Shown piece by piece: positions 5,201 to 64,000 of a stretch of DNA of 64,000 nt (the first letter of the stretch is position 1; every line of letters begins with the position of its first letter). The notes beneath the pieces were generated by a model. The model saw only the letters and a program-made list of their open reading frames with translations. It ran no database searches and had not been told where the DNA came from. This DNA is from Diplonema papillatum. Its lineage: Eukaryota; Euglenozoa; Diplonemea; Diplonemida; Diplonemidae. The position numbers and the translations under genes are program-made. The stretch covers positions 186,001 through 250,000 of the forward strand of contig JAPJBO010000259.1 in the NCBI GenBank assembly GCA_030068145.1, in the 5' to 3' direction.

Positions 5201-5580
5201 TTCACTCTGGGCAAGCCCCTCACAATCGCGCCAAGATGCCGAGAATTGTCAACGAGGCGTTCAAACTTTGTCCCGGCCTTGGCCTACTTCGCAGCACCAG
5301 CTTTCAGTACCAAAGCGCATCTGATCAAGGACGCATCTGACAGGGGCTTGTTCCCTTCCCTCTGGGCAAGCCCCTCACAATCGCGCCAATGCCGTGTGGA
5401 GTTCAAACAGTATCCCGGGCCTCTGTCTTTGCCTACTTCGCAACACCATCTTGCAGCGCAACTGTTCAAAGGTGCATCTGGGCTTGCTCTTGGGCAAGCC
5501 CCTCACAATGGCCCCAAGTGTACCGAGAGTTGTCAAAAGGCGTTCAAACAGTGACCCGGCCTCCTTCGCAGCATCAGCTG
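2240..5580 (+). repeat. Tandem satellite-like array, unit about 158 bp
   Basis: Roughly 18 head-to-tail copies, plus at least one copy in the opposite orientation at the left edge (about 2270-2430). Units run about 140-165 bp. Each contains AGGGGCTTG, a 16-nt spacer and CAAGCCCCT, a perfect 9-bp inverted repeat (for example about 3324-3357), which is kept in most copies. A higher-order block of about 288 bp is duplicated (about 4620-4907 and 4908-5195). ORFs through the array are by-products of the repeat, because homologous units are read in different frames. Confidence 0.9.
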
Positions 5581-5775
5581 TGGAGTGGTTGACTATCCAA
5601 GAGAGAGAGCCAGCAGCACAATAAGGTAGGGAAGCAGCAGCAAAAAAACGTAGGAATACCGGCTTCTAAAAACTCGAACTAGTCCAAAAATTGCACAGGG
5701 CGCGGGGGGGTCGATCGGAGTTGCCGACGGAGCGGAGGGGATCCAGGGGGAGGGGGCGCGGCAAACTCTGAAGTT

Positions 5776-15240: not shown

Positions 15241-16421
15241 GGTCGTCACGCGGAGAAACCTCGTCATTTCTTCCATCATCCTCTCTCATTGCCAAGCTGT
15301 GTAATGCATCACCCGCGTAGGCAAACCGAAGGCCAAACGCGAGCTCGTAAAGTCTACATCCAAGTCGCTTCGCCAAGCTATGTCACCAGTAATCCGCTTG
15401 TTGCACCTTCTGTTTATAACCAAAGCAGGTGACTCAGTCATTGCAACCTTTTCTGGGTTCGAGTAACTCTGACTCTCACGCAGCACCCTGCAGGTGCAAT
15501 AGCAGTTCTGTCTGGGTTCAAACCCGCAGAAGGTGTCAAAACTGGTCTACGACCTACATTCTACCAGACACGAATGGAGGAAATGAGAAGCTCGTCGCCC
15601 AAACCGTGGCGATTTTACTTGCGTCCGTGAATCCGACTTTACGTAACAACGATCAGGCACTGCGTTCAACGAAACCAACTCTCTCTTCCCATCATCATCA
15701 TCATTAGTTTTCTATCAGCCGCGGTTGTGCGAGTGACGAGCTCTTGTTTTCGAGTGATAGTTCGCCCGAGAGTCCGGATTCCGAGGGAATCTGCTAGGCT
15801 AGGACGAACCTACATACAGGGTTGTCTGTTCTTCAGGGAGAAGTATTTTGTCGGTGAGAAAAAACACGCAGTCTTTTTTCGCTTGGTCTTATTCTCCCAA
15901 CAATATAGGTGAACACCCAAACACACACCTTCTCCCTTTCCGGTTTTTGGCGCCACTGACCCGCAGGTCAGGAAAAAACTTCAATTTGGTTGGATTTCCT
16001 TCCGCGTGATTGGCATACGGAAGAGGGTACCCCGCAGAAGTGTTTCCTCCTGCGAGTCAACGGGCCCTCTTTTTCCGTAGCGGGAAGAATTCAATTGACC
16101 GGCCCCCCTCGCAACCTCGCAAGGACGGGAGCAAGGTGGTCCTGTGTTTCTCCACGGGACCCCGACGCTCGCTACGTCGTAATAAACACCCAAACGAAGA
16201 ATAGTCTCTTCTTCCACTTCTCGAACGTCTTCCTCTAACGTCTCATTGTACTAGGCCGGCGCAAAAACCAAAGGGATGGGAAATAATATTTCGAGTTCTT
16301 GTCCGCAAAAAAAGGTCAACCGGAGACTCAAAAATACAAAGGACTTCTTAAAACTCAAAAAAATCTAAAAAAAAAAAAAAAACTAGGATTACCCTCCCTG
16401 CATCAAAGTTGCAGTGCAAAG

Positions 16422-17951
16422 ATGGCGCGAGCCCTGCGCATTGCGTGCAGTTGTCTGTTGCTGGGCACTGCACATGCCGGGTTGAAGGACAAAGCCAGTT
16501 TCCCTGTGGGTGTCGCTGTGTCCGCGAGTAATGGTTTGGTGTACGGTTCGCAGTACGCAGCGCAAGTGAACGACGACTTCAGCGAAGTGACGGCGGGCAA
16601 CATCATGAAGATGAGCTACCTGCACCCGTCGGAGAACACGTTCTCGTGGGGGAACGCCGACAAGCTGGCGAACTGGGCGGGGTCCAACGGGCTGAAGCTC
16701 CACGGGCACACCCTCATCTGGCACTCGGACTACCAGGTGCCGAAGTTCATGAAGAGCTACGGGGGCAACTTCGCCACAATGCTCGAGAAGCACTGCAAAA
16801 CCATCGCGGATCACTTTTCCGGGAAGGTGTCGAGCTGGGACGTCGCCAACGAGGCCATCAACGACGGAGGATCGTGCTACCGGAACTCCGTGTTCTACCA
16901 GAAGCTCGGAAAGGCGTACCTGCCCCTTTGCTTCAAAGCCGCACGCGCAGGAGACCCGTCGGCGACGCTGTACTACAACGACTACAACATCGAACACTCA
17001 TCGAGCAAGTTCAACTGCGTGAAGCAGCTGATCAAAGACGTAAAAGCCGCCGGAGCGCCCATCGACGGAATCGGGTTCCAGTGCCACATCGGCATGTCGA
17101 CGTCGGTGAGCACGATGAAGAGTCACTTCAAGCAGATAGCGGACATGGGGATGAAGGTCAAAATCACCGAGCTGGACATTTCGAACTCGGGTAATGACAA
17201 CGCGGGGCAGAAGAGCAAGTACAAGCAGGTCGTGCAGGCGTATCTGGAGGCGGTGCCGGCGAGCCTGAGGGGAGGCATCACCGTGTGGGGGCTCTACGAC
17301 GGCAACAGCTGGCTCGGCGAGGGCAAGCATCCGCTGCTCTTCTCGGGCTCCGGCCCGTTCACGAAGAAGCAGGCGTACTACGGGTTCGAAGAGGGCCTCG
17401 GCAACGGCGGCGGCGCGCCGCAGCTGCCGCCGCCGCCACCCCCGTCGCCGCCTTCGAACCCAACGCCGCCGAACCCCAGCCCGCCGAACCCGAGCCCCCC
17501 GGCCGGTGGGTGCACAACCGCGTGGGGCGACTGCCGGTTCACGAAGTGCTGCGTGTCCGGGTACACCTGCGTCTACAGCAACCAGTGGTACTCGCAGTGC
17601 CGTCCGGGCAGTTCCCCGCCGTCGAACCCCCCGCCGCCCCCGGCAGCCCCGCAGCCGGCCCCGCAGCCGGCCCCGCAGCCGTCGCCGCCGTCGGGCTCGT
17701 GCACCGTTGCCTGGGGCAACTGCCGGCACACCCAGTGCTGCGTCTCCGGGTACTCCTGCGAGTACAAGGACCCGTACTACTCGCAGTGCCGCCGCGGCGG
17801 GTCGTCGGCGGCCAACCCGCCGCCGCCGCCGCCGCCGCCGGCGTCGTCGGGGTGCACGGGGCCGTGGGGCAACTGCATCGTCACCGGATGCTGCACCGGC
17901 GGGATCCGCTGCACGAAGATGAACCAGTGGTACGCGCAGTGCAAGCCGTGA
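16422..17951 (+). CDS. Secreted GH10 endo-1,4-beta-xylanase with three CBM1-like modules
   Basis: A glycoside hydrolase family 10 enzyme, expected to cleave beta-1,4-xylan internally outside the cell. The 509-aa protein starts with a signal peptide (MARALRIACSCLLLGTAHAG). The GH10 barrel covers about residues 25-325. It has LHGHTLIWHS (94-102), the acid/base Glu144 in WDVANEAI, the nucleophile Glu250 in KITELDI, and TVWGLYDGNSW (287-297). Three modules of about 33 residues follow (364-393, 427-456 and 478-507). They share a C-x(4)-WG-x-C-x(4)-CC-x-(S/G)-G-x(2)-C-x(5-6)-(W/Y)Y-(S/A)-QC pattern, separated by Pro-rich linkers (331-362 and 395-425). Fungal CBM1 binds crystalline cellulose and also ends in YYSQC, but the CC doublet recalls the algal variant. 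I chose ATG 16422 because it begins the signal peptide; the frame is open further upstream through a poly-A run. The gene has no intron. Confidence 0.93.
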   Translation: MARALRIACSCLLLGTAHAGLKDKASFPVGVAVSASNGLVYGSQYAAQVNDDFSEVTAGNIMKMSYLHPSENTFSWGNADKLANWAGSNGLKLHGHTLIWHSDYQVPKFMKSYGGNFATMLEKHCKTIADHFSGKVSSWDVANEAINDGGSCYRNSVFYQKLGKAYLPLCFKAARAGDPSATLYYNDYNIEHSSSKFNCVKQLIKDVKAAGAPIDGIGFQCHIGMSTSVSTMKSHFKQIADMGMKVKITELDISNSGNDNAGQKSKYKQVVQAYLEAVPASLRGGITVWGLYDGNSWLGEGKHPLLFSGSGPFTKKQAYYGFEEGLGNGGGAPQLPPPPPPSPPSNPTPPNPSPPNPSPPAGGCTTAWGDCRFTKCCVSGYTCVYSNQWYSQCRPGSSPPSNPPPPPAAPQPAPQPAPQPSPPSGSCTVAWGNCRHTQCCVSGYSCEYKDPYYSQCRRGGSSAANPPPPPPPPASSGCTGPWGNCIVTGCCTGGIRCTKMNQWYAQCKP

Positions 17952-19819: not shown

Positions 19820-20110
19820 CCCCCTACGCACACACGTGGAGGGCCCAGGGCCACGTTCATTGCGATTGGTGTCGGTCGCAGGAGTATTTACTGGCAGCCA
19901 GAGTGAGCAAACGACTCCCGGCCTCAAGTTTCATCCGGAGACCCTAAAACACCGAGCCTTTAAAGAGTGAAAGGGTACGTACAGTAGCGAGTGGAGAAGA
20001 TACAGCAAGTGTAAAAGAACGGAGGTACAAACTGCCTAACCGACGGAGACCACCGCGATATCTTCTTGCCTCCCAAGTTCCTCAAAACCAGAACCAATCG
20101 CAACGAACCC
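19820..20110 (+). repeat. Dispersed repeat family D (four copies in the window)
   Basis: Copies at about 19820-20110, 22845-23075, 37345-37640 and 61540-61860 share ACGTGG-GGGCCCA, then GTGTCGGTCGCAGGAGT, then GAGTAGAGAAGAG and a final AACCAGCACCAA-like box. All four are in the plus orientation. They lie in intergenic DNA and in one intron of the RRM-BMT5 gene. Confidence 0.65.
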
Positions 20111-21149: not shown

Positions 21150-23270
21150 CCAGCTTCTGCTCCAGCTCTTCGGAGCCGGGCTCTGTCTGCACCTTATGCG
21201 AGACGAACCTCCGGCAGTGCTCCTTCCCACAAACAATCACTTCTTGTTGCCTCGTAGCACAGCTGCACTTGCAGGGAACACCTCCGGAACAACGGCTGCG
21301 CATGACGAAGTCAAATGAAGCCAGCGAGGAAAAAAGAAAGAAGTTCCCAGAACTTGCCGAAAACAGCATCTAAGCGAACCTATCACGACAAAACAACATG
21401 GGCCCCTCAACGAGAATGTCTACCTCATCATGCGCGTCTTCAATCAGAAGACGAGACATTTGGCTACCTTCAGAGAGTCTTGTGCTTGGATCATTCTCAC
21501 CGCCATTGACCAGTTGATGCTGATCGCCCGGTTGCTTCGTTCGTCAGCGCAAGCCCGACTCCGGAAATGTTCGAGAAAATATAGAGTCGCTGCCCCTCTG
21601 CCCGTGCTCCTCGTGCTACGACACCCCATCTTTGCAATCAGAATAAGATTATTCCGCCCACTGGACCCCACACACCCCCTGTGCGTCAGCGCATGTGCTA
21701 CTGCGTATACGCGTAGCAGTGCACTGTGTACACCACACCACAGGATACCATACACCTGTAGTGCATCTAGGAGGATGCTGAGGGCACCGTGTGCCTCCTC
21801 TGCATATCCGTCCTAGTGTACCACTTAGGAGGTGGTATTGTGGTGGTACACACCTCCCCCGTAGCCTCGAAGCGAGCTTGCGCCCTAAAAGCGTTTGAGA
21901 GCCCGCACAATGTTGCTACCAGCCTCTTCCCAGGCAGCGACCTATAGATGGCCCAGGGTCTGCTAGACGAGCTCGTGCAAGACGCTGTTTGTACTGTCGC
22001 AGCACTCGTACCACGATGTGGCCAAAAGGAAGCACTCGGGTGGCGAGAAAGCGACGAGCAACGAACAGCCGCCTGACAAACCCGACTCACACCGCCCTGT
22101 CTGCAGACACTCAGGTTCCGCGCTGATGATGGAGGTCCGCCGTGTGTGTCCCTGGCTTAAAGAACCGAACCCCGGCGCAGATGGGACTAGAGCGGTGCTG
22201 AGCACACACAACCTTCTTGAATCCCCCCACTCCTCTCCTCCCCCCCGCTCCGCACGCACGGTTTCGCTGCATGTCGCCCTCCGTTTCTTCCTCCCCTTTT
22301 ATACCCGAGCGCTCAAAACATTTGTGCTCCAAGATTCTTTATGTCACTGGACCATTTTCCTCTTGCGACCCTGTGTGAACACTGTGCGCAGGACCCACTT
22401 GACCGGGGTCAGAGACATGAAGCGAAGTTTCACTCTGAGACAAGGCGTTTGCGGGTGCCAATATGGGACCACATATGGAGCAGGTATCAACCACCTACGT
22501 GCCCTGTGATATACACCTACAGGTACTCTATACAGCATCATGCTGTATGTGGTGGTGGTATGTAGTGCACTGCCACGTGGTGTGTATAGGACGCAGAAGG
22601 GTCCCAATATAGGCGTTTGCGGGTGCCGGTTGATCGTTTTCCCACTTGCATCGGCCCGGTTTCATTTTCAGGTTGTGAATTCTGATCAACCACCATAGCA
22701 CGCCGGCCACACACAAGAAAAGAAACGAACAGCGAAAATAAGCAAACTGGCCAGCCGTCAGAACGACGTCCCTCGATGTGCGACCTCCTGAAAGTATTCT
22801 CGCTCAAGGACTCGGCTTCTCCATCCACCTCGCCCACCCGCCCTTTCCATGTGTGCACGTGGGGGCCCAGGGTCACATTTATTGCGAATGTGCCCGTGGT
22901 GTCGGTCGCAGGAGTCTTTCTTGGCTAGCGAAGGAGTAAAAGAGTGGAAGAGTCCGTGCAGCAGTGAGTAGAGAAGAGTACGAGTGTAAAGCGCAAGCTA
23001 TCGACACCGACGGAGACCAAGAAATTTCTTGTATTCCCTGATTCCTCAAAAAACCCAGCACCATTAACAACGGCCCACCCGCCCTTCAAGGGAAAAAAGG
23101 CAGGCGCCTCGTTTTGTTTTTGCGTGCCGGTTGATCGCTTTCCCACTTGTATTTCCTGTGTATATTCAGGTAAGGAATTCTGATCAGCCACCAAAACACG
23201 CGCTGCTTCCTACGTCTTTTTAGCCTGCACAATACATTGCAGGGCAACCCGCAAGATTGTTAGTACTAAG
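21150..23270. other. Intergenic repeat-rich DNA
   Basis: Includes a 19-nt palindrome ATACAGCATCATGCTGTAT (22530-22548) within a GTAC/GGTGG-rich tract similar to ones near 21730-21860 and 45400-45520. Also includes two copies (about 22620-22695 and 23125-23205) of a repeat with TGCCGGTTGATCG and TTTCCCACTTG. Further copies of that repeat are near 27620-27690 and 55385-55455, and one is inverted near 32520-32600. No gene was recognised. Confidence 0.5.
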
Positions 23271-24529: not shown

Positions 24530-26170
24530 CCGTCACGTGCTGCACAATCTTCCCGTTGCGCTTTTTAGTCTTGCCTAACTGTGCTCATGCTTTTTCAAGC
24601 TGTACGCCATCTTCTCTGTTGGACGTGCGCGTTACTCGTGAGGTTCTACGGCTCCCTGCTGTGCCATGACACCCGTTGAGCTTCCTGCATCTTCCCGTCG
24701 GCGCTTTTAGTCTTGCCTAGCTGTGTTCATGCTTTTTCAAGCTGTACGTCATCCTGTTGGATATGCGCGTTGCTCGTGAGGTTCTACGGCTCCCTGCTGT
24801 GCCATGACACCCGTTGAGCTTCCTGCATCTTCCCGTCGGCGCTTTTAGTCTTGCCTAGCTGTGTTCATGCTTTTTCAAGCTGTACGCCATCTTGTTGGAT
24901 ATGCGCGTTACTCGTGAGGTTCTACGGCTCCCTGCTGTGCCATGACACCCGTTGAGCTTCCTGCATCTTCCCGTCGGCGCTTTTAGTCTTGCCTAGCTGT
25001 GTTCATGCTTTTTCAAGCTGTACGCCATCTTGTTGGATATGCGCGTTACTCGTGAGGTTCTACGGCTCCCTGCTGTGCCATGACACCCGTTGAGCTTCCT
25101 GCATCTTCCCGTCGGCGCTTTTAGTCTTGCCTAGCTGTGTTCATGCTTTTTCAAGCTGTACGCCATCTTGTTGGATATGCGCGTTACTCGTGAGGTTCTA
25201 CGGCTCCCTGCTGTGCCATGACACCCGTTGAGCTTCCTGCATCTTCCCGTCGGCGCTTTTAGTCTTGCCTAGCTGTGTTCATGCTTTTTCAAGCTGTACG
25301 TCATCTTGTTGGATATGCGCGTTACTCGTGAGGTTCTACGGCTCCCTGCTGTGCCATGACACCCGTTGAGCTTCCTGCATCTTCCCGTCGGCGCTTTTAG
25401 TCTTGCCTAGCTGTGTTCATGCTTTTTCAAGCTGTACGCCATCTTGTTGGATATGCGCGTTACTCGTGAGGTTCTACGGCTCCCTGCTGTGCCATGACAC
25501 CCGTTGAGCTTCCTGCATCTTCCCGTCGGCGCTTTTAGTCTTGCCTAGCTGTGTTCATGCTTTTTCAAGCTGTACGTCATCTTGTTGGATATGCGCGTTA
25601 CTCGTGAGGTTCTACGGCTCCCTGCTGTGCCATGACACCCGTTGAGCTTCCTGCATCTTCCCGTCGGCGCTTTTAGTCTTGCCTAGCTGTGTTCATGCTT
25701 TTTCAAGCTGTACGTCATCTTCTCTGTTGGACGTGCGCGTTACTCGTGAGGTTCTACCGCTCCCTGCTGTGCCATGACACCCGTTGAGCTTCCTGCATCT
25801 TCCCGTCGGCGCTTTTAGTCTTGCCTAGCTGTGTTCATGCTTTTTCAAGCTGTACGCCATCTTCTCTGTTGGACGTGCGCGTTACTCGTGAGGTTCTACG
25901 GCTCCCTGCTGTGCCATGACACCCGTTGAGCTTCCTGCATCTTCCCGTCGGCGCTTTTAGTCTTGCCTAGCTGTGTTCATGCTTTTTCAAGCTGTACGCC
26001 ATCTTCTCTGTTGGACGTGCGCGTTACTCGTGAGGTTCTACGGCTCCCTGCTGTGCCATGACACCCGTTGAGCTTCCTGCATCTTCCCGTCGGCGCTTTT
26101 AGTCTTGCCTAGCTGTGTTCATGCTTTTTCAAGCTGTACGTCATCTTGTTGGATATGCGCGTTGCTCGTG
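24530..26170 (+). repeat. Tandem array, unit about 138-145 bp, about 12 copies
   Basis: CGTTGAGCTTCCTGCATCTT recurs about every 138 bases. Two unit variants differ in a short insertion: CTTGTTGGATATGCG gives 138 bp and CTTCTCTGTTGGACGTGCG gives about 144 bp. The longer variant occurs at both ends of the array and the shorter one in the middle. Copies are nearly identical inside and decay after about 26170. Each unit contains a 14-codon ATG-to-TAG frame beginning ATGACACCCGTTGAGC, whose significance is unknown. Confidence 0.92.
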
Positions 26171-26681
26171 AGGCTCCCTGGTGTGCCGCGACACTTCGTA
26201 GGCTTCCTACGACTTCCTGTCACGCGTTGAGTCTTGCCTACGTTTTCTTGCTGTGCTCATTCGTCCGTTGTTGGACACGCGCGCTACTCGTGAGGTTCTT
26301 ACGTCTCCTGGACGACGCTCTTTAGGCTTAACTCAGCGCACACACGCGCTGGTCTGTTTGAAGCTTTCCGGTCATTTACTGTCGGGGGAGTACGAAAAGG
26401 GAGCAAACGGTGGGGCCTGCGTCATTTTTTGCTTTTAGTGTGTGCGTGTGTTACGAACCTATTTCAACGTGCCCCCCCCCCCCTCTTAGCGAGAGTGCGT
26501 CCACGCGTGGTTTCTTCTAGGTTACTGCTGATACCCCGGGCTGCTGATGGGGGCCTGGAATATCATGCGGGCCGGAGTGCGCGTGCGTGTGTCAGTGGCA
26601 CGGTGCTTTTTTCAGTGCAGATATGAACTGTTTTGTATTACGATCGCGACATTTTCCAAGGAGGATCCGGCAAGAAATAAA

Positions 26682-32600: not shown

Positions 32601-35600
32601 CAAAACGAAGCGCCTGTCTTTTTTGCGATAACCAGTAACCACCTTAGTGAGCATACTTGTTACAGCTAAAAAGGAACGTTGGCAGCGGTTTAACCTGACC
32701 GCGTACAGGTCAAATCGCACAAACAAAACGCGGGTGTGACCCGCCTCATAGAACCCGGCACAAACCCGGGCGAAACCCCGGCGCAAAACATGGCAAGAAC
32801 CTATGCAACGAACTGATATCGAATCAACCCCCCGCAGGCCCTCGACCGCTGGGCGTCGTTGCAAGTTCCCGGCAACCCGACGGCGAGGTACACGAAGCGC
32901 CAGTCACCGGCGGCGCGCGAGAACGACGAACCGCCCGAGAAGGAGCAGCCGAAGACCAACGGCCGCGGCCAGTCGACAGCGCTGATCGTCGCCGGGCCCG
33001 CGTCTGAGTTCGGCGGCGCGATCCCCGCGTATTTGCCGCAGAAGACGAACGTCCCGCCTCCGGACACCGCCGTGCAGAAGCTCGTCGACCGCGCCGCGGC
33101 CAAGTACGCGAAGGCCGGCGTGATGCCGCCGGAGGGCGTGCTCATCCTGCGGACGCAGAACGCCGGCTACTTCCTGTACAAGTCGGACTGCGACCGGCTG
33201 GGCGTCGACAACAGCACCGAGGCGGCGCTCGAAAAAGTCCGCTTGGCGGCCGAAGCCGCGGCGAAGCGCATCGAACGCGCGAACGGCCGCGTCGACGATC
33301 CGAAACCGGACCACTGCTTGCAGGTATACGCCTCCCCCAAAGTCCAAAAATACCATGGTGAAGAAAGTAGAAGAAAAAGAAGTTGTCGACGACGAAAGAA
33401 AGAAAGAAAGAAGAAGAAAAAGAAAAAGGCCGCTCCTGGTCCAGGAACGTGACGGTCAACCACAGCTTGCAAAGCTTGAGTCGGAGGCAGCTCATTGCCA
33501 CAACCCCGTCCGCTCTGCCCTGCGGCTGACCGCCTCGACGAGCTTGTGTTCAGCGCGAGCGCCAAGCCCCAAGGTGCGCCAAGCCTTGATGCTTTAGTTT
33601 GGGAAATCGGTAGCCACTTGACCCGTAGGCCCGTGGCTCTGCAGTACCGCCGAACACGTGAGCTTAGCTCCCGTGTAGCAGGCTTTCCCTGGTACCTAGT
33701 CTCAAGAAAGAAAGAAAGAAGAAAAAGAGGAAAAGGAAAGAACAGAAACTAAGACACTGCGTTCCGCGAAGAAGACTTGATGCTAGCATCAAACACACAT
33801 GAGAGGCAAGTAGCGCCTGAACACGAAACTAAGTTTTCCCCCCACCCCCGAGACTTCCCGCAGTCCTGTCTGCAGACACTCAGGTTCCGCGCTGATGATG
33901 GTCCGCCTTATGTGTCCGTGGCTTCAAGGACCGAAACACGGCGCAGACGGGACCAGTGCGGTGTTGAGCACATATCCATTCAAGCACGTTCTTGCAAACA
34001 CCCCCGAGACTTCCCGCGAAGAAGACTTATTCCATTGGAATTGCTAAAGCCCCCGGTTTCTACCTTAACTATCGGAGCATGGCGAGAGTCCAGGAAACGA
34101 TCGTAGATGGAATTAGGCATGTTGATAAACCATACGAGGCATTTGTCCGATCCTTTTGGAGTTGTTGATAAAACCGTTTTCTACCTTACCTTAACTATCA
34201 CCTGACTTGAACTAACGCGGAAGCATGACAAGACACCGGGCAACGGCAGCGACCATCGCGATGGAATGTTGCATGATGATAAACCATACGAGGCATTTGT
34301 CCGATCCTTTTGGAACTGTTGATAAAACCGTTTTCTACCTTAACTATCACCTGACTTGCACCTGAATTAACGGGGGAGCATGACAAGACTCCGGACAACG
34401 GCCATGGAGATAAAATTGTGCATGATGATAAACCATACGAGGCATTTGTCCGATCCTTTTGGAACTGTTGATAAAACCGTTTTCTACCTTAATTATACCT
34501 GACTTGAACTAACGAGAGACTTCAACGACCATAGAGATGGAATTGTGCATGATGATAAACCATACGAGGCATTTGTCCGATCCTTTGGAACTGTTGATAA
34601 ACCGTTTTCTACCTTAACTATACCTGACTTGAACTAACGAGAGACTTCAACGACCACAGAGATGGAATTGTGCATGATGATAAACCATACGAGGCATTTG
34701 TCCGATCCTTTGGAACTGTTGATAAAACCGTTTTCTACCTTAACTATCACCTGACTTGCACCTGAATTAACGGGGGAGCATGACAAGACTCCGGACAACG
34801 GCCATGGAGATAAAATTGTGCATGATGATAAACCATACGAGGCATTTGTCCGATCCTTTGGAGCTGTTGATAAAACCGTTTTCTACCTTAATTATACCTG
34901 ACTTGAACTAACGAGAGACTTCAACGACCATAGAGATGGAATTGAGCATGATGATAAACCATACGAGGCATTTGTCCGATCCTTTGGAACTGTTGATAAA
35001 CCGTTTTCTACCTTAACTATACCTGACTTGAACTAACGAGAGACTTCAACGACCACAGAGATGGAATTGTGCATGATGATAAACCATACGAGGCATTTGT
35101 CCGATCCTTTGGAACTGTTGATAAAACCGTTTTCTACCTTAACTATCACCTGACTTGCACCTGAATTAACGGGGGAGCATGACAAGACTCCGGACAACGG
35201 CCATGGAGATAAAATTGTGCATGATGATAAACCATACGAGGCATTTGTCCGATCCTTTGGAGCTGTTGATATAACCGTTTTCTACCTTAATTATACCTGA
35301 CTTGAACTAACGAGAGACTTCAACGACCATAGAGATGGAATTGTGCATGATGATAAACCATACGAGGCATTTGTCCGATCCTTTGGAACTGTTGATAAAA
35401 CCGTTTTCTACCTTAACTATACCTGACTTGAACTAACGAGAGACTTCAACGACCATAGAGATGGAATTGAGCATGATGATAAACCATACGAGGCATTTGT
35501 CCGATCCTTTTGGAGTTGTTGATAAAACCGTTTTCTACCTTAACTATCACCTGACTTGAACTAACGCGGAAGCATGACAAGACACCGGGCAACGGCAACG

Positions 35601-38600
35601 ACCATCGCGATGAAATGTTGCATGATGATAAACCATACGAGGCATTTGTCCGATCCTTTTGGAACTGTTGATAAAACCGTTTTCTACCTTAACTATCACC
35701 TGACTTGAACTAACGTGGGCATGGCAAGACTCCGGGCAACGCCCGTAGAGATGGAACTGCGCATGATGATAAACCATACGAGGCATTTGTCCGATCCTTT
35801 TGGAATTGTTGATAAGACCGTTTTCTACCTTAACTATCACCTGACTTGCACCTGAATTAACGGGGGAGCATGACAAGACTCCGGACAACGGCCATGGAGA
35901 TAAAATTGTGCATGATGATAAACCATACGAGGCATTTGTCCGATCCTTTGGAGCTGTTGATAAAACCGTTTTCTACCTTAATTATACCTGACTTGAACTA
36001 ACGAGAGACTTCAACGACCACAGAGATGGAATTGTGCATGATGATAAACCATACGAGGCATTTGTCCGATCCTTTGGAATTGTTGATAAAACCGTTTTCT
36101 ACCTTAACTATACCTGATTTGAACTAACGAGAGACTTCGCACAACGACCATAGAGATGGGATTGAGCATGATGATAAACCATACGAGGCATTTGTCCGAT
36201 CCTTCGGAATTGATGATAAAACCGTTTTCTACCTTAACTATACCTGATTTGAACTAACGAGAGACTTCGCACAACGACCATAGAGATGGAATTGAGCATG
36301 ATGATAAACCATACGAGGCATTTGTCCGATCCTTTGGAACTGTTGATAAGACCGTTTTCTACCTTACCTATCACCTGACTTGGACGAACGCGGGAACATG
36401 GCTGGGCTCCAGGAAGTGCAGTGAAGCATTTTTCGAAGAGGTGGAACCAGCCTCTTTTAACCTCCAAAACACACAGTGCGATGAGCCGGGTCAGATACCT
36501 TTCACCAACGACATGAAGATGCTCATTCTCGCCGAAGACAACATGGTATGCGCCTTTGCTGCCGCCTTTCCGCTTCACTCGGGGCTTTATTGCGATAGCC
36601 AGTAACCACCTCCTTAGTGAGCATACTTGTTACAGCTAACAAGGAACGTTGGCAGCGGTTTAACACAACCTGAACGCGCACAGGTCAAATCGCACAAACA
36701 GAACCAATTGCGTTTGGCATTATCAGGGGCTGCACACGTGCACACAAACAAAAGTCGCAGAATTCTGCAGAAACTATACGATTTTTGGAGCGCATGGTAA
36801 GGTGAGGGGACAGTGCGCGTAACCCCCGGAGTTTCTAGTAAGCTGCCAATCTAATCAAGTGAGCTGTCACTCTAAAACCCGGAGTTTCAAACAAGCTATC
36901 ACCTGTTAGCTCAGCAGTCTCAAACTGAGCGACTCGTGCTAGCAAGGAGTTAACCAACATGGCTCGTCGAGGAAATACGGGACTCTCACCGGTTCAGGCT
37001 TGCTTGGGCTCTGCCCTGTTCACTCGCCGTTACTAGGAGCATCGCTGTTGCTTTCTTTTCTAGCGTTTATTTTTTCCTGTGCTGAGTGACATGCTTAAGT
37101 TTAGCGCGTAGATCTTCAACGGCTGAAGTCGGTGAGAGTTTCATTCGAACGACCTGTTTTTCGAGAAAAAAAAGCAGTCCATGCCTTTGAAGTGTGCACC
37201 TCACACTCTGAAAACCGGGAGTTTCAAGCAAGCTATCATTTATAAACTCTCGGAGTTTCAACTGAGCTGTCACACCAAAGTCCTGGGGTTTCAAGCAAGC
37301 TATCACTCTAAAAACTAAAGACTAACCCCCCCCCCCCCCCCCGGAAGTTACAATGAAGGCTTAGACCGGTACGGGCTACATGGCAACCCCTGCTCAACAT
37401 GTAGAACGTGGGGGGCCCTTGATTCATTACGGGTGTGGTCGTGGTGTCGGTCGCAATAGTCGCTTTGCTAGCCAAAGAGAGAGATAGAGAGAAAAAGAGC
37501 GCCAGAGAGAAAAGAAAAGATAACGTTATCTTCCGGAAAAGAAGGGTTACGCGAACCCCCGAAAAAATAATTACCCAAAAAATAAAATAAAAAAAAAATA
37601 AAAACACAAACCGACGGTGACCCCCAAAACCTTTTTCAACCTTTCCAATTCCCTTCAAGCTAAACCATTATACAACGACCCCCCCCCCCCCCCCCCCCCC
37701 GGAATTTTAAGCGAACTTTAACTCTTAACCCCCGGAGTTTCAAGCCAGGAGTTTCAGGACGAGCCAACACTCTAAATATCAAAGACCAAACCCCCGGAAT
37801 ATTAAGACCCGGCGTTTCATGCTCCACAAACCCACACGCAGACCTTTTCCGCGGCTCTGCTGGAGCGGTTGCAGAACGGGGCGAACATGATCGTGACGAC
37901 GCCGAGCACGAAGGAAGAGCTGATCGCCCGGTTCGGCAACTCTACGGCGGAGAACATCCAGAAGCTGGTGGACGCGGAGGTGAAGGTTGGGTACGGCTTC
38001 GACCCGACGATCGGCGCGACGTACGAGGGCCTGATCGACATGCAGTTCGACGCGATTGTGGCCAACTACCCGAAGGCGCCTCTTCCGGGCGGCGGCCACA
38101 CGCCGGACGCGGAGGCGAACAAAAACTACCTCCGGAAGATCATGAAGCACACCCCTGCGATCCTCGCTTCGCGGGGCAAAGTGTACATCTCGCAGCTCAC
38201 TGGCGCCGGGTACAACGACTGGGACGTCCCGAAAACGGCGCTGCGCGCAGACACCGGGCTGCGGCTGATCGACAAGTTCCCCATGCGCACCGACGAATTC
38301 CCGGGCTACGTGCCGGAGTTCGCGTCGTACGACGACGCCGCCCCCTACCGCAATGCCAGCTGGTACCTCTTCGGCCGGAAGAAGAAGTACGAGATGTTCG
38401 ACAAACACGGAGAGAGAGACGTCGAGCTGGAGATGGTCAGGCAGTCGAACAGACGGGCCAGGAGTGAGTCGTCGGAGCCGGCGAAGAAAAAGAAGCAGAA
38501 GGATGACAAAGACAAGGACAAGGAGAAAGAGAAGGAGAAGAGCAAAGATCGGGACAAGGAGGCGGACCGGGAGAAGGACAGAGACAAGGGGTCGTCTCGC

Positions 38601-38741
38601 AAGCGGGAGCGGTCGCGGGAAAAGGACCACGACAGGAGGGACCGCGACAGGGACAGAGACAGAGACAAGGACAGGGACAGAGACAGAGACAGGGACAGGC
38701 GGGACCGGGACCGCCGCGACAGGCGCGATCGAAGACGGTGA
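29646..38741 (+). CDS. Four-RRM protein fused to a BMT5-like (DUF2431) domain with an Arg/Asp-rich tail
   Basis: Exons are 29646-30713, 31432-31826, 32239-32350, 32838-33323, 36417-36545 and 37842-38741. Phases match at every junction, giving 1029 aa. Residues 1-180 are Pro/Met/Gly-rich with imperfect GMPPGMPQAMPP repeats. RRM-like folds lie at about 184-258, 268-345 (CVWVGL, HAIVAFT), 376-457 (KLVFRYS, KMAFVTM) and 473-535 (SLCLHYPS, RFIIIDFQE, split over exons 2-4). Residues 536-690 are a linker with a possible further fold. Residues 718-910 match the 25S rRNA uridine-N3 methyltransferase (BMT5-like, DUF2431) Rossmann fold: MKMLILAEDN for motif I, FDAIVANYPK (799-808) for the central motif, then KVYISQLTG and FPGY. 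Motif I lacks the family's glycines (GEGD becomes AEDN), so methyltransferase activity is doubtful. Residues 935-1029 are RD/RE/K-rich, typical of nuclear RNA-processing proteins. The exon 5 acceptor (AAG at 36416) is chosen for phase and is the weakest junction. Confidence 0.8.
31040..31250 (+). repeat. R1 hairpin repeat copies in intron 1 of the RRM-BMT5 gene
   Basis: Two terminal hairpins of the R1 family: AGGCAG-ACCGTA-CTGCCT near 31066 and AGGCAG-TGCT-CTGCCT at 31219-31234. The second is followed by the usual AAACATTAAACTAAG. Confidence 0.65.
32615..32725 (+). repeat. Dispersed repeat family G, copy 1
   Basis: TTGCGATAACCAGTAACC, then GTTACAGCTAA and GGAACGTTGGCAGCGG, ending CAGGTCAAATCGCACAAAC. 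A second copy lies at 36590-36695, in another intron of the same gene. Identity looks above 85% by eye. Confidence 0.75.
33433..33690 (+). repeat. Dispersed ~250 bp repeat F, copy 1
   Basis: Nearly identical to 51838-52085 (shared TCCTGGTCCAGGAACGTGAC, GCTTGCAAAGCTTGAGTCGG and TTGATGCTTTAGTTTGGGAA). A diverged copy in the opposite orientation is at about 27510-27610 in the phosphatase intron. Confidence 0.85.
34055..36412 (+). repeat. Tandem array inside intron 4 of the RRM-BMT5 gene, 17 copies
   Basis: The string AACCATACGAGGCATTTGTC occurs 17 times between about 34127 and 36305. Spacings alternate between about 126-130 (short unit, with AACGAGAGACTTCAACGACC) and about 145-152 (long unit, with GGGGGAGCATGACAAGACTCC or GCGGAAGCATGACAAGACACC). 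The last partial unit runs up to the splice acceptor of exon 5, and the exon begins within a few bases of a unit-like CCAGGAA string. Minus-strand ORFs through the array are repeat by-products. Confidence 0.93.
37310..37705 (+). repeat. Poly-C runs in intron 5 of the RRM-BMT5 gene
   Basis: C runs of about 16 (37326-37341) and about 20 (37680-37700) flank a copy of repeat family D. Similar long C or G runs occur at about 26469, 47297, 58994, 61861 and 63312, always outside confirmed exons. Confidence 0.8.
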
Positions 38742-58101: not shown

Positions 58102-58919
<818 letters not shown>

Positions 58920-58982
58920 GTGACAGCAAGGTCTAGCTATACCGTTATTGGATTAACCCCTTACGGACGGGAGACATATGAG

Positions 58983-59044
58983 ACGATGCCAAACCCCCCC
59001 CCCCCCCTTTGCACTAATAAAAATCTTTTTGACGTCACCCCATA
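58983..59044 (+). mobile_element. 62-bp end of the long-TIR element, abutting the RT fragment
   Basis: ACGATGCCAAAC, a run of C, then TTTGCACTAATAAAAATC and GACGTCACCCCATA. The same sequence occurs inverted at 63276-63336 and, without the first 11 bases, at 61861-61908. From 59045 the sequence departs from the TIR and becomes RT coding DNA. Confidence 0.75.
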
Positions 59045-59645
59045 TGTTCTGGTCAACAGGGTGCTCATGAGGCAGACGTTAGGCATTCCCATGGGTGCGA
59101 ACGCGTCCCCGGACATCGCAAACCTCTTTTGCTATGCGAAGGAACGAAAGCACATGATGCAACTCTTGGAAGATGGGGACACTCAACGTGCAGCACTGCT
59201 AAGCCTGACACGCCGTTTCATCGACGATCTGTTATGTTTCGGCACAAAACCCCCACCGGAGTCTGTGTACAACATGAAGTACAAACAGACAAACGCCGAA
59301 GTGGGAGACGCCACCTTCCTCGGTATTCGCATTCGGCACGAAGTCTCCGAAGCGTCCGGGAGGAGGTACATGCGCCTGTCGGTCCTGGACAAAGCAAAAG
59401 CGTACCGGTACCAGCCCCTGGCGTACACATCCGTACTCTCGACGGCCCCGTCGAACTTTGGGTCGAGTATCCTCATCGGGGCGCTTGTACGGAACAGCAG
59501 GATCGCGAATAACCTCCATGACTTCAAAACCGAAATGAACAACACGGTGCTGAAACTCATGAGACGGGGATACCGCAAGAGTGTCTTGAAGAGCGGTTTT
59601 CGCAAAATGGCTTCTCGACACCTACCCGGAGGCAAAGTTTGGTAG
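59043..59645 (+). CDS. Reverse transcriptase fragment, Penelope-like type (5'-truncated)
   Basis: The frame is open from 58920, but the RT-like part starts near 59043. LGIPMGANASPDIANLF (RT motif B region) is at about 59079-59130. RRFIDDLLCF, with the catalytic Asp pair in the place of the usual YxDD, is at 59211-59240. A thumb-like tail follows with RNSRIANNLHDF and LMRRGYRKSVL. GIPMG together with R(F/Y)IDD and a late RGY motif is typical of Penelope-like and related algal retroelement RTs. The fingers and the first catalytic Asp motif are missing. The frame stops at 59643, but the next frame continues smoothly with protein-like sequence from about 59600 into the protease ORF, so a frameshift lies near 59595-59640. 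Confidence 0.8.
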   Translation, partial: YVLVNRVLMRQTLGIPMGANASPDIANLFCYAKERKHMMQLLEDGDTQRAALLSLTRRFIDDLLCFGTKPPPESVYNMKYKQTNAEVGDATFLGIRIRHEVSEASGRRYMRLSVLDKAKAYRYQPLAYTSVLSTAPSNFGSSILIGALVRNSRIANNLHDFKTEMNNTVLKLMRRGYRKSVLKSGFRKMASRHLPGGKVW

Positions 59646-59673
59646 TCACTGCGAGAAGATCCGTTCGCATTTC

Positions 59674-61299
59674 ATGTGGCTCGTACATGAGGTGGAACGC
59701 ATCTTGCACTTGTCCGACTTGGAGTGCATCAACCAAGCGATCGAAAAGCTGCTCGCTGAGAGAGACTTTGTGAGATACCGGACCCGCCCTCGATCAGGCG
59801 CACGATCGGGGCGGCATACGCCCGATCAGCCCCCCACAGTGGCTTCGAAGCAACATCACTGCCTTGTACCTGAGGACGGAGCTGGGAAAGGAAAACGCAA
59901 GCGAAATGACGATAACATGGTTCAGCCTGGGCCGAAAAGGCGTTGCGACGTGCTCCGGACTGTGCCTGACACGCTGGACTCTTCTTCTCCCGCTCTCCTA
60001 TCTGGCTGTAGTATCCCGCAGACCTTACGTCTGTCCGACCCGTCGCCGCTCGAGCCTGCCGGCCTCCCGAACATCGGCAATACATGCTTCCTCAATGCGG
60101 TACTGCAACTGCTGTTGCGTGTAGAACCGATCAGGGAGATGTATTACAGTCTTGCCCAAAACCTCGTCAATTTCCGAGGTTTCCTGAGGGAGTTCTTGAC
60201 ATACTTCGTCCTGCTAATAAGCTCACGCTCCGGGAGGAGCCGACTTAGCCAGGACAGCCGAAGGCTAGGCGTCGAAACGATCCTTGCCATGCTCCCTCAG
60301 TTCTGTGATGCTCGACAGCACGACGCACACGAAGCTTTGATGGCACTGCTGGATGGGACGAACACGGACGAGACGGGGGAGGCCTCTCCGGACTGGTGGC
60401 TGTTTCAGGCGTGCCTGGGGAACACAGTGACGAATACAACACGCTGCGTCACTTGTGGCTCTGTCTCCACCCGGCAGCAATCGGTGCAATGTGTTCAGGT
60501 CCCCCGTGGAAGACCGTTGGAGGAATCGTTCTGTGTTCGCGGAACGGTTAATCCGGAGAGGAGATGTGACTGCGGTGCCGCTGGTTCCGTTGTGGAGAGT
60601 ATGAGCACGCAAGTGACTTCCGAGTGCCTGCTGTTACAGTTCGGCATTTGCGCCAACGGCGGGGCGAGACTGCAGAATGATCTTTCTCTGCCGCTCCTCC
60701 TGCGCTTGCCGGGCGGTACATTACGTCTTTCTGCGGTGGTTGTACATTCGGGGCAGAATGCCACTAACGGGCATTTCGTCACCTACGTCTCGCAAGGGGT
60801 GCAATGGACGCTCTACGATGACGAACAAGTCGTATGCGTCGACACTGTCCCCTGGACTGACGTGTACCTCGCCGCGTACGTACGGGTCCCCAGCGCATCG
60901 CACGAGATAATCGAACGCTTGCCTTCTCCTACTATGATCGCTACGACAGTCCAGTCGCCGACGCTTCCGATGCCGCCTACCCCGCCCTGTGCCGGTGCAA
61001 CACCGGGGGTTGTCAGCCGGCGCCTCCCGACACCGCGCTGCCAGCGCTCGGACGGCTACCTGGTGGGCCCGCAGCCCCCGCGGAACTACGGTGCAAGCGC
61101 TGCTTCACCGACCGCACCAAAAGTGGTCAACTCTTCCGAAACCTCAGGAGCCTCCGTGCGCACGAGGCTCGCTGCACGTACATTAACTTCGGGGAGTGAC
61201 ATGTGCAGTGACATGTGCCTTAAGGAACGACCGGAATCTCGATCCGGTAAAGATGGTATCTGGCTCGGTGTTGTTGTGAAGAAGAGGGTACACGGCTAG
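59674..61299 (+). CDS. Ubiquitin-specific protease (peptidase C19) in a retroelement-like unit
   Basis: A 541-codon ORF. Residues 1-37 continue the RT tail (WLVHEVERILHLSDLE). They are followed by a basic linker with GKGKRKRNDD, possibly a nuclear signal. The USP fold spans about 129-404. The Cys box is GLPNIGNTCFLNAVLQLLL (nucleophile Cys138). QHDAHEALMALL is the conserved DxxE segment. Cys258/Cys261 and Cys298/Cys300 are probable zinc ligands. The His box is NGHFVTYV (His367), followed by WTLYDDEQVVCV with the third catalytic position and the AAYVRV end strand. All catalytic elements seem intact, so it could remove ubiquitin from host or element proteins. The C-terminal 130 residues are Pro/Ser-rich. 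Its frame is open upstream of the ATG into RT-like sequence, so the two were probably one polyprotein. A host USP gene that trapped an RT remnant is the alternative. Confidence 0.88.
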   Translation: MWLVHEVERILHLSDLECINQAIEKLLAERDFVRYRTRPRSGARSGRHTPDQPPTVASKQHHCLVPEDGAGKGKRKRNDDNMVQPGPKRRCDVLRTVPDTLDSSSPALLSGCSIPQTLRLSDPSPLEPAGLPNIGNTCFLNAVLQLLLRVEPIREMYYSLAQNLVNFRGFLREFLTYFVLLISSRSGRSRLSQDSRRLGVETILAMLPQFCDARQHDAHEALMALLDGTNTDETGEASPDWWLFQACLGNTVTNTTRCVTCGSVSTRQQSVQCVQVPRGRPLEESFCVRGTVNPERRCDCGAAGSVVESMSTQVTSECLLLQFGICANGGARLQNDLSLPLLLRLPGGTLRLSAVVVHSGQNATNGHFVTYVSQGVQWTLYDDEQVVCVDTVPWTDVYLAAYVRVPSASHEIIERLPSPTMIATTVQSPTLPMPPTPPCAGATPGVVSRRLPTPRCQRSDGYLVGPQPPRNYGASAASPTAPKVVNSSETSGASVRTRLAARTLTSGSDMCSDMCLKERPESRSGKDGIWLGVVVKKRVHG

Positions 61300-61860
61300 G
61301 GTGCTGCGCCGACGTAGCTTACCTTTCGCCCTGCATCTGTGGACGGCCTGCCCACTTATGTTTAATGTATTGGAGGTCCGCTAAAGCCCGCCTAGCCTTG
61401 TGCTAGGCGTAGTTTAAGGTTGTACTGATCTACAAACAACCACTTACGAGCTTGTCAATCCCACCGATTTTTATCTTCTTCCCTCCCCCTTTTCCGACGT
61501 TGCTGTTGACTAACGGTTAGGTAGGACCCTTCCCCGGTGAACATCCCATGAAAGTAACAATGATGACTTAGGCCGATACGGGCTACATGGCAACCCCTGC
61601 TCAACATGTACGCACGTGGGGGGCCCATGGCCACATTCATTCCGAATGTGTTCGTGGTGTCGGTCGAAGGAGTCTTTTTGTTTTTGACTAGCCAAAGAGA
61701 GTAAAGGAGTGTAAAGGAGTGTAAGAGTACGTACAGTAGTGAGTAGAGAAGAGAACGAGTGAAAAAGAAAGGAGGTAGTACGGACTACCAGACCACCGCA
61801 AAGAGAAAAAACAAAAACTACCCTCACCTCATCCCATAAAACCAGCACCAATAATAACGA
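61300..61860. other. Interval between USP ORF and the TIR element
   Basis: Contains a copy of repeat family D (about 61540-61860) ending directly at the poly-C start of the next TIR. No ORF of interest. Confidence 0.5.
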
Positions 61861-63336
61861 CCCCCCCCCCTTTGCACTAATAAAAATCTTTTTGACGTCA
61901 CCCCATACTGGCCCCGAACCCCCGTCTGTGTGGCCCAAAACGGGTCCCAAACGGTTTTTGACGGGCTGAGTCGAGGTAAAGGGGTCTCCGAAGGTCCACG
62001 AATGGGCCCAGGTGGGCCCAGGTGGGCCCCGGAGCGGGCACTCAGCGCGAGGGGGAGAGCCCCCCAAAATGGGGTCATTTTCGGGCCTCGCCACTATTCA
62101 AGCTAGTCAAACACCTTCTGGCCTCCAGCGGGAAACCCAGACTTCAAAACGACAAGATCGGCTGTGTTCAGCCGTAGATAGCCACCAGCGGGTCCTCTTG
62201 AAGCCGAAGAATGCTCTCGGGGGTCACAGTTAGCCCCATGTGTGCAGCGCCAGCAGTGGGCAGGCACACGCTCAGAATGTGTGGTATGCAAGTGCACCCT
62301 GCCTAGAATCCGGCTTCACCCGCTTTTGAGAACACAGTGCTTACAAGGAAAACGCAGAATATAAGGTGGAAAAATTCAAAAGAACCAAGATGAGGACTGT
62401 GGGCCCCCCCGCCAACGCCAATCTCGGCAGCCTTTCCCCGGTTCTTTCAGAGATTGTCACCCACGACCATTCCAACAGCCCTGTACCGGGCACGTGCCCA
62501 GTCCAAACCGCTCACGATGCGTCGCCGGCTCGCCTCGTCGTCAAGGCTGTTGAAGGCTTCTGAAAGCCTACCAGAAAGGCGCTTCCAGATGTCAACGTTC
62601 TCCTCCTCTGTCATTAGGGCGAGAAAGAAACCGATCAGGTCCTCACCAGAGACCTTTTCGCAAAAGGTCCTGCTGGCTACGAGTCGTCTCTGCATGGACT
62701 GACCACGTCTCGTTTCCTCATGAAACGGCGACAACTTCTGCATTGCTCTCACCGATGACTCCACGAACTCCAGACCCGTGATCTTTGGCATTTTCCCTCT
62801 CTTAGTTTCCGTTTTCCTGGGTCAACCTGTATTCTTAATTCGTATTGCTGGTAAAGCCGGATTCTAGGCAGGGTGCACCTGCTGCACCCACTCTATTTAC
62901 AAGGTGTGCCTGCCCACCGCAGGCGCTGCAGGCGGGGTGGCAAAGTAGGGCTATCTGAGACCCCTGAGAACATTCTTCGGCTTCAAGAGGACCCGCTGGT
63001 GGCTATCTACAGCGGAACACAGCCGATCTTGTCGTTGTGTAGTCTGGGTTTCCCGCTGGAGGCCAGAAGGTGTTTGACTAGCTTGAGAAGTGGCGAGGCT
63101 TTGAAAATGACCCCATTTTTGGGGCACCCCCCCTCGCACTAAGTGCCCGCTCCGGGGCCCACCTGGGCCCACCTGGGCCTATTCGTGGGCCTTCAGAGAC
63201 CCCTTTACCTCGACTCAGCCCGCCAAAAACCGTTTGGGAACCGTTTTTGCCACACAAGTGGGGTTTCGGGACCAGTATGGGGTGACATCAAATTTTTTTT
63301 ATTAGTGCAAAGGGGGGGGGGGGGGTTTGGCATCGT
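61861..63336. mobile_element. Long terminal-inverted-repeat element of about 1.47 kb
   Basis: The left arm (61861-62316) and right arm (62854-63325, with end bases to 63336) are inverted copies. Both start with a C/G run, then TTTGCACTAATAAAAA, GGGCCCAGGTGGGCCCAGG and TCTTGAAGCCGAAGAATG, and both end at GTGCACCCTGCCTAGAATCC. The outer ~350 bp of the arms match well; the inner 100 bp are more diverged. The 537-bp core holds one minus-strand ORF. No transposase is present, so it would depend on proteins from elsewhere, or it is a different kind of mobile unit. Confidence 0.8.
62447..62791 (-). CDS. 114-aa protein in the core of the TIR element, unknown function
   Basis: ATG to TAA on the minus strand, beginning MPKITGLEFVESSVRAM. 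It is helical and charged, with QRRLVASRTFCEKVSGEDL, an acidic MTEEENVDIWKRL, and a DEASRRRIVSGLDWARARYR end. The composition looks like a real small alpha-helical protein. It fills most of the space between the inverted repeats, which supports its being the cargo of the element. No family is recognised; DNA-binding or regulation is speculation. Confidence 0.5.
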   Translation of the reverse strand: MPKITGLEFVESSVRAMQKLSPFHEETRRGQSMQRRLVASRTFCEKVSGEDLIGFFLALMTEEENVDIWKRLSGRLSEAFNSLDDEASRRRIVSGLDWARARYRAVGMVVGDNL

Positions 63337-64000
63337 ACCATATATATATGTTGAAAAATCAAAAAAGGTTGCGCAGATCATCTCGCCTATGAAGACACAC
63401 CGAAAGTGATCCATACTTACTTCTTTGGAAAGATATGTCGCAATAATATACCGTTATTGGATTAATGTTGAACCGGGTAAAACCTGGGACACCCCCCAAA
63501 ATGGGGCTGGGTATCCCAGGTTTACCCGGTTCGGCATTTTTTTTTATACCAAACATGAAATGTTGGAGGAAATGAGAAGCTCGTTGCCGCAAACCGCGGC
63601 GTTTTCAGCCGCTTTAGCCATACTTCAACTCACTTGCGTCCTGAATCCAGCTTTACGTAAAAAAACGATCAGGCACTGCGTTCAACGAAAGATTTGCGAC
63701 TTTGCGTACTAGCGCCTTGGGGTGCTCAATACTCATCGACCCCTAGATGCCGCTGACATAGGAGGATGCAGGACCGCCACTCCGCGTGTCCCAGGTTTTA
63801 CCCGGCCTGTCATTTCCCCGTTCCAGCTTTTTATAGTCCAGCTCACCATTATTGTTCCGATTACGTTGCAATCATTTTTGCAGCCTCGCCTGTTCTACAC
63901 CCCCGCCCACTATTTGTTAAGCCTTGGGGCAACCCGCAAAGGTTGCCGGTGCTAAAAACGGATATGACTGGTCACCATAGGAAATCGGAGCGCGATTGAC
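63337..64000. other. Right edge of the window, repeat DNA
   Basis: Carries TATACCGTTATTGGATTAA (63447-63465, also at 58938-58956), then a strong inverted repeat at 63469-63534 (AACCGGGTAAA...TTTACCCGGTT). A relative of the 15560-15690 repeat (63560-63690) and a CAACCCGCAAAGG box near 63930, also seen at 23240 and 55960, follow. Short plus-strand ORFs reach the edge but show no family. Confidence 0.5.

Follow-up and report, generated by a model that had tools for sequence, protein, structure and literature searches.

A probable Penelope-like retroelement of Diplonema papillatum with a predicted deubiquitinase of its own

How does a fragment of a reverse transcriptase (RT) come to run, in the next reading frame, into a complete ubiquitin-specific protease (USP)? 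This question is raised by a locus of the diplonemid Diplonema papillatum, lying in the 64,000-nucleotide stretch of DNA analysed here (contig JAPJBO010000259.1, positions 186,001 to 250,000; hereafter the window, whose coordinates are used below). Two overlapping open reading frames (ORFs) are found at this locus, one at 58911-59645 with the motifs GIPMGAN and FIDD and a thumb-like RRGYRK, and another at 59590-61299 with the continuation of the thumb and a full USP. The locus proves to be a copy, 5'-truncated and frame-shifted, of a retroelement that is present many times, was active recently, and encodes in one ORF an N-terminal endonuclease, a CxC region, a predicted RT, a basic linker, and a C-terminal USP. 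To our overall interpretation, in which this element would move in the way Penelope-like elements (PLEs) do and would bring along its own deubiquitinase, we give a probability of roughly 70%.

The boundaries of the locus provided insights into its origin. Positions 59045-61860 (2816 bp) form a single retroelement insertion, 5'-truncated within the RT and bounded by a perfect target duplication in the form of identical 47-bp direct repeats (58998-59044 and 61861-61907). When the insert and one repeat copy are set aside, the two flanks together can be aligned without interruption (475/568 columns) to the opposite arm of a DNA transposon with inverted repeats, indicating that RT and USP arrived together. 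The other, uninterrupted arm has the same C-run as the insertion site; hence, the C-run was part of the target before insertion. A preliminary description of the locus had set its limits at 59043-61299, but the junction lies 2 bp further, at 59045, and the element extends to 61860 with its 3' untranslated region (UTR). The features of the copy and its target are as follows.

59045-61860, forward strand: RT-USP retroelement copy, 5'-truncated, 2816 bp (perfect 47-bp direct repeat; flank alignment 475/568)
58998-59044, forward strand: target-site duplication, left copy, beginning in the C-run, so that its exact edge is uncertain
61861-61907, forward strand: target-site duplication, right copy (47-bp repeat)
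59045-59642, forward strand: C-terminal part of the putative RT with motif B' GIPMGAN, FIDD, and thumb (motifs; weak RT matches of full-length relatives)
59590-59642, forward strand: frame-shift interval with both frames open, absent from L052-L056 (ORF comparison)
59593-61299, forward strand: frame that carries on the RT thumb and then encodes the basic linker and the USP (the 96% amino acid relative, L002/L056, is single-frame with its RT)
60061-60846, forward strand: complete USP domain (UCH, C19; Pfam UCH, PDB USP12/46, catalytic residues)
61089-61196, forward strand: C-terminal C2HC-like finger (RCKRC...HEARC), out of the USP frame here and in frame in L052-L055
61300-61860, forward strand: 3' UTR, ending in AACGA ahead of the target C-run
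58976-63343, no strand assigned: the target, a DNA transposon with long terminal inverted repeats, split by the insertion (inverted-arm alignment)

The frame of the window copy is broken at two places, at 59590-59642 and in the C-terminal finger (61089-61196). Its closest relative, L056 (95.4% of 2855 aligned columns), runs in a single open frame across the first of these points, as do L052-L055, while its finger is out of frame as well. The earlier suggestion of an ancestral RT-USP polyprotein is thus borne out by single-frame copies elsewhere in the genome. The same description had postulated a single frameshift, either mutational or programmed; the split is mutational, and it is not single, as the finger is also out of frame.

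We searched the genome of D. papillatum (271 Mb, 2910 contigs, including that of the window) for further copies. The search with the RT gave 102 rows, merged to 100 places (100 scored of 609 candidates), and that with the USP ORF gave 79 matches (77 scored of 968 candidates), so both counts are lower bounds. The element is present in at least 100 copies, many of which are broken, but at 37 of the scored RT places the surrounding frame stays open for 1562 to 1652 aa. At 77 of the 100, a listed USP follows on the same strand, in 41 cases at 316 bp, in 29 at 313, in 3 at 310, in 3 at -149, and in 1 at 442. Among the other 23 places, 16 were fetched, 15 of which displayed USP sequence, and 7 fall outside the count. 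The RT is thus followed by USP sequence at no fewer than 92 of the 100 places, although it is only partial in L058 and L059 and its frame is broken in L057. The remaining fetched place, the interrupted locus L070, displays an RT and no USP, the sole such case among the loci sampled. A Penelope-like family devoid of USP may nevertheless exist, since these loci cover a minority of the 225 genomic matches to the pattern GIPMGxN (0 in the reversed control).

Full-length members revealed the anatomy of the element. In L052-L055, the domain order is GIY-YIG endonuclease, CxC (as CPC), RT, basic linker, USP, and C2HC-like finger. The ORF of L052 has 1562 aa and that of L054 has 1610 aa (near-identical second copies L053 and L055, respectively), with Pfam UCH matches at E-values of 5.7e-23 and 1.5e-20; upstream of the first likely methionine, the ORF is not conserved (20.8% identity). 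We distinguished five subfamilies, represented by the window copy and L056 (A), L052 (B), L054 (C), L060 (D), and L069 (E).

The RT fragment of the window alone had no match in Pfam, PHROGs, or PDB; hence, its identification relies on motifs and on the full-length relatives. The RT segment of L052 had only two NCBIfam matches, to group II and retron RTs (0.061 and 0.15), while the whole L052 ORF had none, and in PADLOC each of three RT segments matched one family only, an RT (0.0016, 0.01, and 0.0032). Together with the motif order, these weak profile matches suffice to predict an RT. As for the affiliation to PLEs, which had been suggested from the window alone, the full-length relatives lend it support by adding an N-terminal GIY-YIG domain that the window copy lost through its 5' truncation. 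This domain precedes the RT within one ORF, an order derived from L052-L055 and from the overlapping pieces L104 and L108 of a second lineage described below. Against a Pfam cut-off of 22.6 bits, it scored 22.9 in L052, 22.3 (just under) in L054, and 26.6 in L108. The CPC motif lies between endonuclease and RT in L052, L054, and L104/L108, and the endonuclease region of L052 (residues 156-262) has zero cysteines and thus no CCHH motif. Hammerhead ribozymes gave 0 Rfam matches at the gathering score in five loci. A check for pseudo-long terminal repeats and tandem copies found a partial 3' copy upstream of L054 (94% over 477 bp, about 75 bp apart) and none at L052. Judged by its motifs and domain order, the element is probably a Chlamys-like PLE, that is, one with an N-terminal endonuclease, equipped with its own deubiquitinase.

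The C-terminal domain of the element is a predicted deubiquitinase of the USP type (C19), as judged from the UCH domain, the Cys, His, and Asp boxes, and the zinc-ligand pairs. The preliminary description was right that the frame after that of the RT fragment holds a USP in full: the window USP matches Pfam UCH (PF00443) at 5.2e-23 and displays the catalytic Cys (60085-60087) and His (60772-60774), YDD (60814-60822, with Asp-Asp at 60817-60822), and two zinc-ligand pairs. Its closest solved structures in PDB are USP12 (9.6e-13) and USP46 (2.6e-11). The catalytic Cys, His, and DD and both zinc-ligand pairs are conserved in all eight element USPs compared. Ratios of nonsynonymous to synonymous substitution rates (dN/dS) were 0.14 (B-C), 0.18 (A-B), and 0.14 (A-C) for the USP and 0.07, 0.16, and 0.08 for the RT, A-B being the soundest pair for both domains. 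Meanwhile, the basic linker before the USP gave 0.55 (B-C) and 0.48 (A-B), with A-C saturated (ratio of nonsynonymous to synonymous differences, pN/pS, 0.70). The linker after the USP gave a pN/pS of 0.59 (saturated) for B-C, the only fair comparison as this stretch is out of frame in A, and 0.69 for A-B. It is therefore well supported, from these comparisons, that the USP is a functional and selected component of the element.

The copies also point to recent mobility. L052 and L053 are 99.95% identical over 5710 bp, and L054 and L055 are 99.87% identical over 5414 bp, with unlike flanks in both pairs; among 26 copies (28 loci minus two with a different offset), the median difference is 1 in 1419 nt. 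Such near-identity indicates that the element is recently active. Of the loci L001-L030, which are not fully independent, as L018 and L019 have a common flank, 29 have a C-run where the 3' end of the element joins the target. AACGA (or AACGT) followed by 6-19 C was found by pattern at 19 of the 30 and by eye at 10 more, including the window copy. Only four C in a row are present at the 3' junctions of L006 and L014, and L005 does not fit.

Several observations count against our interpretation. Pfam RVT_1 was not found in the window lineage and stayed under the cut-off in the second lineage (0.028, 0.064, and 0.11), the RT is devoid of a PDB match, and its placement in a clade of PLEs draws on motifs and on a domain order known from the literature. 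The finger is out of frame in subfamily A, and 2 of the 79 USP matches are listed as more than 90% identical to the window copy. An AlphaFold model of the window USP from the single sequence was uninformative (mean predicted local distance difference test score 36.2). Finally, the substitution ratios for B-C and A-C are rough, their synonymous sites being almost saturated.

We identified a second lineage through the GIPMGxN pattern, the listed matches of which include GGNASP besides GANASP. Four loci of the GGNASP type were examined (L104 with L108, L105, L106, and L107), and a USP lies at the same position, behind the RT, in all four. L104 with L108 encodes GIY-YIG, CPC, RT, and USP (UCH 1.4e-15), the UCH domain was also detected in L105 (1.5e-18) and L107 (1.7e-18), and L106 is decayed, with its RT and USP pieces scattered over several frames. 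The RT of L104 is 38.8% identical to that of subfamily B over 464 positions, and dN/dS between L104 and L105 was 0.059 for the RT, 0.66 for the linker, and 0.111 for the USP. The USP is the last domain in the ORFs of L104, L105, and L107, which lack the finger; a finger C-terminal to the USP is present in the window lineage.

The genome contains 149 matches to PF00443, and we compared 24 non-element ones with the element USPs. Only one of them is close, namely L098 within L101 (57.5% identity to B), the rest reaching about 25% over most of the domain. L101 encodes, at 4302-6407, an ORF of 702 aa with a metallo-beta-lactamase (MBL; 3.2e-8) and a USP (6.5e-32), followed by some 200 bp of element-like 3' UTR (79%). 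The MBL part occurs only once in the genome (1 match among 9 candidates). In a tree with 12 host USPs, the MBL-USP is sister to the USPs of A-E (98/93), and it retains the catalytic boxes, with dN/dS of 0.17-0.21 against the elements. The preliminary description had named RT copies without a USP, along with single-copy host orthologs of the USP without RT, as what would refute a fusion; instead, the USP accompanies nearly all RT places sampled, and the only close non-element USP of the 24 is linked to the element through the 3' UTR that they share. The MBL-USP may have been either the donor of the element USP or a derivative of the element, the latter if a single USP acquisition preceded the split between A-E and F-H.

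Collectively, these findings allow a tentative scenario, to which we give somewhat less than even odds. A deep Penelope-like clade would have gained a USP once, before its lineages split, and purifying selection would have preserved it as a deubiquitinase that acts in cis and on which retrotransposition depends; later, the tail of an element would have fused to an MBL gene and yielded a single-copy host deubiquitinase with intact catalytic boxes. Two independent acquisitions, one per lineage, are a real possibility in place of one ancient gain, though we rather doubt them. The USPs of F and G are only about 20-23% identical to those of A-E in the longer alignments, as distant as some host USPs, and the F-H and A-E USPs are unjoined in the free tree. 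Nonetheless, the USP has the same position directly behind the thumb in both lineages, the RT itself is just 39% identical while the USP evolves faster than the RT in both, and a single clade of element USPs was not rejected by the approximately unbiased test (p-AU 0.387).

How the element might move can be outlined by analogy with PLEs. The endonuclease would nick in or beside a C-run, and the RT would copy the element RNA from the nick in a manner similar to target-primed reverse transcription, often halting early and leaving a 5'-truncated copy. A staggered second cleavage would then produce the target duplication (47 bp in the window copy). The USP, carried on the same polypeptide, would strip ubiquitin from the protein-RNA complex of the element and its immediate partners, shielding the complex from proteasomal degradation or from repair and silencing processes at the target that depend on ubiquitin. 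The preliminary description had already proposed that the USP might offset a ubiquitin-driven loss of the element's proteins. This action in cis is the mechanism we prefer, and we hold it to be nearly an even bet. It is unlikely that the USP acts instead on chromatin, where deubiquitination of histones at the target would give access to the endonuclease and the repair machinery. USP12 and USP46, the best solved relatives of the window USP, do act on H2A and H2B, and the finger and the basic linker behind the RT could, from their sequence, bind nucleic acid; however, the similarity to USP12/46 is too low to read a substrate from it, and L104, L105, and L107 retain the USP without any finger. 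More improbable still is that the USP chiefly cleaves the polyprotein of the element as viral proteases do. USPs need ubiquitin-like substrates, no ubiquitin-like domain turned up in Pfam scans of the element ORFs, and the linkers are fast-evolving, even though several enzymes share one long ORF and the OTU-type protease of turnip yellow mosaic virus is reported to perform both processing and deubiquitination. A programmed frameshift was rejected and retains almost no credibility, for the overlap of two open frames at 59590-59642 is countered by the unbroken frames of L056 and L052-L055 at this site and by the 37 long open frames. Equally negligible is the idea that an RT fragment came by chance to lie next to a host USP gene or to a retrocopy of such a gene; it is rejected by the 47-bp duplication around one insertion and by the many long single-frame copies, with the division of the window copy over two frames as its sole support.

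The surroundings displayed other features of mobile DNA. The DNA transposon at 58976-63343 has terminal inverted repeats of more than 500 bp with a poly-C tract near the ends, and similar arms also flank element copies L020 and L029. A perfect direct repeat, ATACCGTTATTGGATTAA, at 58939-58956 and 63448-63465 flanks the whole unit of transposon plus insert, although not directly at the ends of the inverted repeats (expected mean 0.00 in 100 shuffles). Positions 37345-37507, 22848-22990, and 19830-20027 resemble the element 3' UTR (four alignments, 76-82%) and are likely old tails of related elements. The window also contains a GH10 xylanase-like gene (16287-17948) with a CBM_1-like match toward its C-terminal side, a BMT5-like rRNA methyltransferase domain (37806-38738) with a tail rich in arginine and aspartate, and three long tandem-repeat arrays (2993-5587, 24547-26308, and 34031-36413). 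Light-harvesting proteins had no match in the host genome.

Ubiquitin-dependent turnover is regarded as a means of policing the proteins of retroelements. An element with its own USP would make this arms race directly testable, since versions with and without deubiquitination would differ in a single catalytic residue. It would also widen the known parts list of PLEs, and the MBL-USP may illustrate how hosts come to acquire deubiquitinases. Outside this genome, no relatives were confirmed in viral contigs (by window USP, window RT, GIPMGxN pattern, or alignment A2; the pattern gave 21 stretches, 0 of which resembled the element RT), in prokaryote genomes (A2), or in phage records (RT).

Among the literature matches listed, drawn from openly licensed full texts, no retroelement with a USP was named, and an endonuclease, an RT, and a USP in one protein were unseen as a combination in the literature searched. 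The Chlamys/Naiad clade, reportedly described by Craig et al. in 2021, is said to comprise PLEs with an N-terminal GIY-YIG; we know of no USP in the Chlamys elements of that report. Chlamys-type families have a GIY-YIG without the CCHH cysteines, a CxC motif, an RT with IDD, simple-sequence targets, and 5' truncation. Our element resembles the Chlamys/Naiad PLEs in all of these features, with no hammerhead found, and differs by adding a C-terminal USP and, in the window lineage, a finger. In Ectocarpus, a protist lineage with Chlamys-group PLEs, three PLE/Chlamys families amount to 4782 copies, 27 of them intact; the main text of that source does not contain the word "ubiquitin", and the domain key of its transposable element figure has EN, RT, INT, RH, ZnK, AP, and DDE, without a USP (PMC12477816). 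Poseidon, a canonical PLE of Anolis, likewise combines GIY-YIG and RT in one ORF, and its protein is reported to perform target cleavage and reverse transcription in vitro; unlike Poseidon, the present element has an N-terminal endonuclease, no Rfam match, and a poly-C target (PMC11167929). The Ginger1 elements are DDE-transposase DNA transposons that carry OTU or Ulp1 rather than C19 domains, although the same source also mentions a T. vaginalis protein with transposase_11 and Peptidase C19 (PMC2836005). As in the element described here, a mobile-element protein of Ginger1 ends in a cysteine protease of the ubiquitin/SUMO system, and in connection with these OTU and Ulp1 domains it has been suggested that the ubiquitin system takes part in transposition (PMC2836005).
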